Source: Desulfovibrio ferrophilus (lineage in GTDB: Bacteria > Desulfobacterota > Desulfovibrionia > Desulfovibrionales > Desulfovibrionaceae). Taken from it: a stretch of DNA of 64,000 nt. Numbering within the stretch: the first letter of the stretch is position 1; each line of letters opens with the position of its first letter. Made by a program: the position numbers and the translations under genes. Below, one piece after another: positions 45,473 through 48,300 of this stretch. The notes beneath the pieces were generated by a model. It did not search any database. It had not been told where the DNA came from and was given only the letters and a program-made list of their open reading frames with translations. The DNA is taken from assembly GCF_003966735.1 (NCBI RefSeq), contig NZ_AP017378.1, positions 2,438,905-2,502,904 on the forward strand, read 5' to 3'.

Positions 45473-45656
45473 CTATCCTTTACTCCCTGAAAAATGGGGC
45501 CCTGCACCAAGCGCAGGCAAATCTAGTTACACGAATTGCCTGTGCTTTAAAAGAACCTTCACCCGCCTTGTCCATCCGCCAGTTGCCGCACTGCACTGTT
45601 GTATGTCATTGTTCTGGCTGAATCCTTTCCTTCAGCAGCCATACAAGGATGATCGA

Positions 45657-46166
45657 ATGCAGGAATCAGCCTATTTGGAAGGTCACGAGGAATACCTGGC
45701 CAACCTTCGCCGGATGCCATTGTTCCATTCCATGGAAGATGACCAATTGAGAGCCGTCCTCTCGCTTTCCAAACTCAGAAAATACGACAAGGGCGAGACC
45801 ATCATCAACGAAGGCGCTTTTGATTCCTGGATGTACTTTATCATCTCGGGCCGCGTGCGGGTGGAAAAGGCCGGGCGAAAGATAGGGGAAATCTGTGGCT
45901 CCGGTTCGGTGTTTGGTGAAATGGGAGTACTCAGCGAGCAGGAACGTTCCGCCACCGTACGCGCCCACACCGACGCCATGTGCCTGGCCGTGGACGCCTC
46001 TTTTTTGGAACGCCTGGATGAAAAGGACCGCAACGCCTGTTACACGGTGCTCTACCGCATGTTTGTGGATATTCTGGCCGAGCGCCTACGCGAAACAACC
46101 ACCGAATTGGCCACGGCCAAGGAAAAGATGGCGGTCCTGCGCAAGAAGATTGTCGATGGCGAATAA
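45657..46166 (+). CDS. Cyclic-nucleotide-binding protein without DNA-binding domain
   Basis: From the ATG at 45657 (AAGGATGATC before it) the protein has 169 residues. Most of it is a cNMP-binding barrel with the phosphate-binding cassette FGEMGVLSEQERSATVRA, including the Arg that contacts cyclic nucleotide. The last 30 residues form a coiled coil (RETTTELATAKEKMAVLRKK) instead of a helix-turn-helix. It may act by protein contact, possibly with the chemoreceptor encoded 118 bases downstream in the same direction. Confidence 0.8.
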   Translation: MQESAYLEGHEEYLANLRRMPLFHSMEDDQLRAVLSLSKLRKYDKGETIINEGAFDSWMYFIISGRVRVEKAGRKIGEICGSGSVFGEMGVLSEQERSATVRAHTDAMCLAVDASFLERLDEKDRNACYTVLYRMFVDILAERLRETTTELATAKEKMAVLRKKIVDGE

Positions 46167-46284
46167 TGCCGCTTCCCGTCGCTTCTATTGCGTTTTGCCC
46201 ATACCCATTATAGCTTGAACAATTACTACAGCATCGCCAATTCCAGCGATGCCTCCGGGACCTTCCATCTGGAGTAAGACGACC

Positions 46285-48300
46285 ATGCCCGACCTCAAGG
46301 ACTCCGGCTCATCTGCAAGTATCTGGATTCTCGGTGTGACTTTTGCCGCACTTGCAATCGTTTCTGCCGAAACGGCCTCGTGGTGGGTCGCAGGAATCGG
46401 GTCCGCCCTTGGCCTGGGCCTGACGGCCTGGGTTGCCAGACGAAGCTCCATGGCCGGTCGCCAAGCGGTGCAGACAGCCCGCGAGGCCTTTGAGCAACTC
46501 GATGCTGCCAAGGCTGAACTGGAAGCCCTGTCCCTGGCAGTGCACGCCTCCCCTCTGCCTCTGGCAGCCTTCGGGCCGGACAAGACGACTGCCGCGGCCA
46601 GCGAAAGCTTTGCCCGCCTGGCAGGACGCCCTGCAAACAAGATAGCGGGGCTGGATATCAAGACTTTGCTGGGCCCCGAAGCCGCCGAAGCAGCCCAAAA
46701 GGCGGATGCCCTCGAAGGAACCCAGACCGTTACTGTTTCGGGCGAGACCATCCGCGTTTACTCCACCCGAACCGGCGGCGGGGCCGCCGTTGTGCTGGCT
46801 GTTCCCTGCGCCCGCGAAATGGCCGAAGCCGAACACAATAGAAATAAACTCGCGAATTTTCATTCCGCATCCCAAGCCATCAATGAACTGGCTCAACGCA
46901 TGGCCGGATCATCCGAACTCATGAGCGCCTATGCCGATGAACAGGCCACTGGCGCAAATCGTCAAAAGCAACAGACAGAAGCCGTGGCCGGCGCCATCGA
47001 CAAGATGATGAGCGCTGTCATGGAGGTGGCCACCAATGCCTCAGCCACCTCCGAAGCCGCCAGCGAAGCACGCGAAGTGGCCGTTGATGGCACAAACATG
47101 GTGCACAAGGCCGTGGAAGGCATCAACACCCTGGCCACCTCCGCCAAGGAACTGGCCGAAGTCCTTGCCGGGCTGGATACCCAGGCCGGAGAAATCGGAC
47201 GTGTCATCGGCGTGATTTCAGACATCGCTGACCAGACCAACCTGCTGGCCCTGAATGCCGCCATCGAAGCCGCACGAGCGGGAGATGCCGGGCGTGGCTT
47301 TGCCGTTGTGGCCGACGAGGTCCGCAAACTGGCCGAGAAGACCATGCAAGCCACTGGCGAGGTAGAATCCGCAGTCAGAAACATTCAGGCGTCGTCCAAG
47401 GAGGCCATGACCTCCATGGACCGCACCGGCAGAATGGTGGAGGAGTCCACAGACCTTTCCAATCAGGCCGGACAGGCCCTTGAAAAAGTCATGGAGCATA
47501 TCGAAGGCATGGTGGATCGCGTGCACCATATTGCCCAGGCTGCGGAGGAGCAATCCGCCGCCGCCGAACAAATTTCCGCCAGTGTTGAGGAAATCGCCTC
47601 CATTGCGCGCGACTCCGATGAAGGGGCCACCCAGCAGGCATACGCCACCAAGGACATCGCCACCCTGTCCGCAGAACTGCTTGGCCTGGCCCAGGGGTTA
47701 TCCGGCAAGGAAGGCAAGTCCCTGAAGATTGCCAAGTCCGAAGGATTGATGAAAGGAGTGCTGCCCAAGCTGATGCAGGACTACATCAAGGACGAATTCG
47801 GTCCCGACACCTTCGAGGCCGTGCAGGAGGAACTGGGCGATCCGACCTTCCTGCCCGGCGAGAGCTACCCCGACACAGTACTGCACCAGATGGCCGATCT
47901 GGTCAGTGCCGCCACCGGCACCTCCAAACGCGACGTACTCTACGGCTTGGGGCTGGTCACCGTGAATGGCTTCCACAAGCTCTACAAGCGCTACTTCCGC
48001 ACCAAAGACCTGAAGGAATTCTACATGTCCATGAACGATGTACATGCCGAAGTCACCAAGGACATGCCCGGCGTGAAGCCCCCCAAATTCACCTTCGAAG
48101 ACAAGGGTGATACCCTGTTCATGAATTATACTTCGCCCCGCGCCCTGTTCGATTATTTCGAGGGCATCCTGAATGGCGCAGCCCGATTCTTCGACCAAAA
48201 GATCGATGTGCGGATCAAGCCCCTGAACAAGGATACCGCCAGGGCCGAGATTCATTTTCTGGAATGCGACAGCAAGACCGAGTGCAACCTCAAACCTTGA
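46285..48300 (+). CDS. Methyl-accepting chemotaxis protein with C-terminal H-NOX domain
   Basis: From the ATG at 46285 (GGAGTAAG before it) the protein has 671 residues. Two membrane segments lie near the N-terminus (about 12-30 and 33-50), then a PAS-like region (about 65-160). The MCP signalling hairpin has the conserved tip [20 protein letters not shown]. The C-terminal 183 residues (489-671) match H-NOX: MKG start, proximal heme His587 ([10 protein letters not shown]), the Y615-x-S617-x-R619 heme-carboxylate motif and Tyr624 where T. tengcongensis has the O2-stabilising Tyr140. The distal Trp and Asn equivalents are Met and Thr. It probably steers swimming in response to O2 or NO. Confidence 0.9.

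Follow-up and report, generated by a model that had tools for sequence, protein, structure and literature searches.

Binding of NO is general among H-NOX proteins, and work on Tyr-type H-NOX receptors has, to our knowledge, been confined almost entirely to isolated domains from two Firmicutes. According to a published rule, the H-NOXs of obligate anaerobes that bear a tyrosine and are fused to a chemoreceptor (MCP) bind O2 (PMC8738867). Trp9 and Asn74 have been described as partners of this residue, Tyr140, in anaerobe H-NOXs (PMC1435932), and the cavity and tunnels of the protein matter for ligand affinity as well (PMC7356049). DcrH of Desulfovibrio vulgaris, a chemoreceptor of another type, has been proposed to serve negative aerotaxis (PMC9388753, PMC13401364).

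This study analyzed a 64,000-nucleotide stretch of DNA from Desulfovibrio ferrophilus (the window), which encodes a receptor resembling those of T. tengcongensis (Caldanaerobacter; Tt) and Clostridium botulinum; these are likewise MCP fusions from anaerobes that contain Tyr140, the proximal His, and the YxSxR motif. O2 sensing is already known from anaerobe H-NOXs that have the tyrosine and an MCP fusion, so the window receptor is a variant of an established kind. Iyer et al. reportedly had already listed Desulfovibrio HNOB-MCP fusions in 2003; an earlier mention of the architecture is therefore likely, and its discovery is not claimed here.

Domain organization of the receptor

The gene and its parts were located in the window as follows.

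46271..46274, + strand: ribosome-binding site GGAG, 10 nt ahead of ATG 46285 (sequence)
46285..48300, + strand: MCP-H-NOX gene, 671 aa plus stop (ORF and Pfam)
46312..46443, + strand: hydrophobic helical hairpin, residues 10-53 (model secondary structure, hydropathy)
46549..46809, + strand: predicted degenerate PAS fold, residues ~89-175 (AlphaFold model, Foldseek)
46849..47688, + strand: MCP hairpin, probably of the 40H class, residues 189-468 (Pfam, alignments to 6s18 and Tsr)
47689..47748, + strand: linker of ~20 residues (length nearly constant across the family)
47749..48279, + strand: H-NOX (HNOB) domain, residues 489-665 (Pfam, phmmer, model fold)

An alternative start at ATG 46249 was rejected, ATG 46285 with its upstream GGAG being the better one. 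Just upstream of the receptor gene and on the same strand, positions 45654-46166 encode a small lone cyclic-nucleotide-binding protein, Crp-like, in which Pfam detected no DNA-binding domain.

The original prediction described an MCP hairpin followed by a full H-NOX domain, with the H-NOX at the C-terminus here and at the N-terminus in T. tengcongensis. Pfam returned MCPsignal (residues 256-440, E 7.5e-47) and HNOB in that order, the contrast with T. tengcongensis was correct, and the MCP-H-NOX observation was confirmed as real. The architecture is not due to chance, because it was kept in 98 homologues (the window copy included).

In the secondary structure of the model, residues 10-53 formed two putative TM helices joined by hardly any periplasmic loop; hydropathy peaked at residues 8-31, and the second helix of the hairpin fell below the 1.6 cut-off. 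The MCP region aligned with the aromatic-acid chemoreceptor 6s18 over 271 residues with zero gaps, whereas its alignment with E. coli Tsr (36H) contained symmetric gaps about 14 residues long. These alignment gaps, and not a class HMM, indicate that the hairpin probably belongs to the 40H class.

The AlphaFold model of residues 1-214 (pLDDT 84.5), which drew on an alignment including PAS-bearing relatives, revealed the helical hairpin at residues 10-53, a helix, and a PAS topology at residues ~90-175. The pLDDT of the PAS region was mostly 85-95, and its Foldseek matches were mostly PAS/LOV chains (E to 1e-5). Pfam PAS models matched 75 of 89 relatives, yet no Pfam PAS family matched the N-terminal region of the window copy, so that the PAS of this copy appears to be degenerate. 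This predicted domain was overlooked in the original prediction and is added by the present analysis.

The H-NOX domain and its heme pocket

The HNOB model (PF07700) matched residues 490-643 (E 1.3e-36; 126.4 bits against a cut-off of 25.5) and was covered from position 1 to 162 of its 163 positions. A phmmer search of the PDB found the Tt H-NOX at 1e-16. The structural model of residues 465-671 (pLDDT 90.6) was compared with Tt H-NOX 1u4h, and the H-NOX fold was recovered (Z 20.7, 2.3 A, 173 residues); the best structural match was the Nostoc H-NOX (Z 22.4, 1.6 A). The residues of the heme pocket were assigned by alignment.

47773..47775, + strand: Met497, at the position of Tt Trp9
47959..47961, + strand: Thr559, at the position of Tt Asn74
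48043..48045, + strand: His587, at the position of the proximal His102
48127..48141, + strand: Y615-x-S617-x-R619, the heme propionate motif (Tt Y131/S133/R135)
48154..48156, + strand: Tyr624, at the position of Tt Tyr140

Pro600 and G556 further matched Tt P115 and G71. The phmmer alignment contained no gap from YxSxR to Tyr624, and the absence of indels between R135 and Y140 makes the register of Tyr624, as distinct from its side-chain orientation, secure. The retained His587 and YxSxR motif, the equation of Tyr624 with Tyr140, and the replacement of the distal Trp and Asn by Met and Thr, all of which had been read from the sequence earlier, were borne out by these alignments.

Distribution and conservation across the family

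Relatives were gathered by whole-genome searches of the window's family; a scan of the contigs of close relatives gave one locus only. The MCP-H-NOX fusion was present in 96 of the 288 family genomes (97 proteins), and these proteins plus one from a public MAG constituted the set of 98 homologues. An H-NOX of any type was present in 97 of the 288 genomes, among which G204 had a stand-alone H-NOX only (L003:1366-2031). The latter is of the non-Tyr type, and another species of its genus has the MCP fusion. A phylum-wide sample of 395 genomes yielded only 6 other H-NOX proteins outside the family, all in frames of 186-246 residues.

The MCP was N-terminal to the H-NOX in all 98 fusions, and the linker between them measured 21-23 residues in 91 of the 98. 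Identity of the ~98 variants to the window copy was 40-81%. The near-constant linker suggests tight coupling between the H-NOX and the MCP. Across about 20 genera, the proximal His was present in 97 of 98 fusions, YxSxR in 97 of 97, and Tyr140 in 95 of 97 (one further locus ends before Tyr140), counts that are not independent events because all family sequences are related. Position 74 was Thr in 84 fusions and Ser in 13, the latter in the three genera g33, g37, and g39; thus, Thr or Ser occupied this position in 97 of 98 fusions, and it accompanied Tyr140 in all 95 Tyr140 proteins. Position 9 was Met in 58, Ala in 17, Thr in 16, and another residue in the rest, and neither W9 nor N74 was found in any of the 98. 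The pocket had been called mixed; Met9 and Thr74 are indeed present, but they are not a quirk of this receptor, since Met/Ala/Thr9 and Thr/Ser74 are the family standard.

Two relatives carried paired changes. In L102:2404-4578, H102Y was paired with Y140F, and both the proximal His and Tyr140 were lost; in L104:2318-4480, the sole fusion with Ala74, T74A was paired with Y140F. The 11 stand-alone H-NOXs compared (seven from the window's phylum and four from plasmids) had neither Tyr140 nor Thr/Ser74, position 74 being hydrophobic, Ala, or Cys. On the basis of the covariation of positions 74 and 140, we propose that Thr/Ser74 may replace Asn74 as the hydrogen-bond partner of Tyr140. The tree, in which support was 87/74 and long branches meet, would allow Tyr140 to have arisen once.

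Linkage to cheA in relatives and the cheA operons of the window genome

The window gene had no conserved neighbours beyond its genus. The original prediction missed the cheA linkage that is found in relatives. There, cheA immediately followed the receptor gene, in the same orientation, in 32 of 33 loci of genus g37 and in 3 of 3 loci each of g36 and g4, and in g35, g16, g12, g3, and g31 it was 2.3-3.5 kb downstream, within a single chemotaxis operon, with an atypical-MCP homologue between. The intervening genes in L107, L109, L120, and L077 encode an atypical MCP (~610 residues) and CheY, and cheR and cheB follow cheA in L107, L109, and L120; these genes were assigned by Pfam in L109 and by sequence in the other three loci. 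Because the clusters of neighbourhood ORFs were mostly frame shadows of the MCP, the cheA cluster alone was used.

Besides the receptor gene, the window genome has about 24-25 MCP genes, and it encodes two CheAs. One CheA belongs to the orthologue of the relatives' operon, at about 827-834 kb (L130), comprising an atypical MCP, cheY, cheA, cheR, cheB, CYTH, and clpA, with an M29 peptidase gene upstream in place of the receptor. At the head of this second cheA operon is a 657-aa MCP-like protein (L130:6982-8955; G000:C1:826981-828954), in which Pfam found two weak MCPsignal stretches. For each of the 45 H-NOX-linked CheAs, the L130 CheA was a closer relative than the second CheA of the window genome, and the order cheB, CYTH, clpA recurred in g35, g16, and g12. 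The clpS/clpA/aat neighbourhood is one that we take to be that of D. vulgaris cheA1 (DVU1594). The other CheA (L131) adjoins HEAT, cheR, parA-like, cheW, and cheY genes, a set resembling the CheA3 operon of D. vulgaris. That operon is required for soft-agar motility, whereas what CheA1 and CheA2 do in D. vulgaris has yet to be worked out (PMC3944678). CheA was present in 97 of 97 H-NOX-positive genomes and in 130 of the 191 genomes that lack H-NOX (Fisher p 3e-13, a value that ignores kinship).

Proposed O2 sensing and alternative explanations

The findings are probably best explained by an O2-responsive chemoreceptor that binds O2 on the ferrous heme of its H-NOX domain and feeds the CheA of the second chemosensory operon. 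Heme binding, the O2 signal, the coupling route, and the CheA partner are what we infer. Under the published Tyr/MCP-fusion rule (PMC8738867), the receptor would be an O2 receptor; the original prediction had spoken of an O2-avoidance sensor, and its O2 part fits this rule and the Tyr140 of 95 of 97 fusions, with O2 as the predicted ligand.

The receptor would be anchored in the membrane and face the cytoplasm. Its C-terminal H-NOX would bind O2 on ferrous heme held by His587, and the bound O2 would be hydrogen-bonded by Tyr624, probably aided by the Thr559 hydroxyl; because Trp9 and Asn74 are absent, the O2 affinity could be lower. Binding would rearrange the heme and the H-NOX, and the change would be passed through the ~20-residue linker to the C-terminal arm of the predicted 40H hairpin. 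Since MCP hairpins return membrane-proximally, the C-terminal sensor would enter the four-helix bundle where the N-terminal PAS does, the PAS lying beside the C-terminal arm. A signal reaching the hairpin tip would change CheA activity. Because the receptor gene is not linked to cheA in the window genome, the partner was predicted from relatives, which point to the CheA encoded in the atypical-MCP/cheY/cheA/cheR/cheB operon elsewhere in this genome as the probable cognate kinase. A broader reading is conceivable but tentative: a family-wide O2-sensing lineage in which a Thr/Ser74-Tyr140 hydroxyl pair stands in for the Trp/Asn/Tyr network, and which acts at the C-terminal end of the MCP, would feed a second CheA array, non-flagellar or conditional, and not the main flagellar one.

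The same pocket could be read as that of an NO sensor by which cells are steered in settings such as denitrifying or host niches, with Tyr140 tolerated. H-NOX domains are generally known to bind NO, and without Trp9 and Asn74 the hydrogen-bond network of the tyrosine would be unlike that of Tt. However, Tyr140 and Thr/Ser74 were kept together in 95 proteins, whereas the 11 stand-alone H-NOXs have neither, and a tyrosine combined with an MCP fusion marks the O2-binding group (PMC8738867); we therefore consider NO sensing unlikely.

A redox or dual-signal receptor, whose heme reports the oxidation state or provides one input beside a PAS that, like that of Aer, may sense energy or redox, would suit the N-terminal PAS fold, the TM hairpin, the absent periplasmic domain, and the frequency of PAS among relatives (75 of 89). 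The PAS of the window copy has nevertheless degenerated beyond recognition by the Pfam PAS models, whereas the heme pocket is conserved, and this possibility appears quite unlikely. Relative L102, which is devoid of His102 and Tyr140, would accord with a degenerate or heme-free H-NOX that has a structural role only. Such a role is highly improbable for the window copy, which retains the proximal His (as in 97 of 98 relatives), YxSxR, Pro115, and Tyr140.

Comparison with known systems

A limited literature search, which does not prove absence, revealed no paper describing a C-terminal H-NOX in Desulfovibrio. Nor did it turn up any account of the order reversal as a trait conserved in the family, of a pocket of the T/S74-Y140 type, of linkage to cheA, or of a candidate second array. 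For the O2-responsive receptor proposed here, the ~98 natural variants, in which Tyr140 is fixed and the other two pocket partners are changed, provide a test of Tyr140 alone for O2. The analysis further provides an H-NOX receptor with a candidate kinase pathway, and models of coupling are constrained by a sensor at the opposite end of the MCP with a near-constant linker.

DcrH is likewise an MCP of a sulfate reducer with a C-terminal O2-binding domain, and its C-terminal hemerythrin is, by analogy, a precedent for a C-terminal sensor (PMC9388753). It differs from the window receptor in that the domain is a di-iron hemerythrin and not a heme H-NOX, and in having a periplasmic domain and a HAMP. 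Aer consists of a cytoplasmic PAS, a membrane anchor without a periplasmic sensor, and an MCP. The window receptor shares this layout, but Aer has no H-NOX, and the PAS here appears degenerate. The stand-alone NO-type H-NOXs (Shewanella, Vibrio, and Nostoc) have the same fold as the window H-NOX, whereas the stand-alone H-NOXs compared (n=11) lack Tyr140 and an MCP fusion. Two Clostridia N-terminal H-NOX MCPs with W9/N74/Y140 were compared, those of Tt and Acetoanaerobium; the latter, with the full triad, comes from a 2.6 Mb record that is classified as a plasmid (L132:3348-5180). In contrast to the Tt-type receptors, in which the H-NOX is N-terminal and carries W9/N74, the window copy has a C-terminal H-NOX with M9/T74 and a predicted PAS before the MCP.
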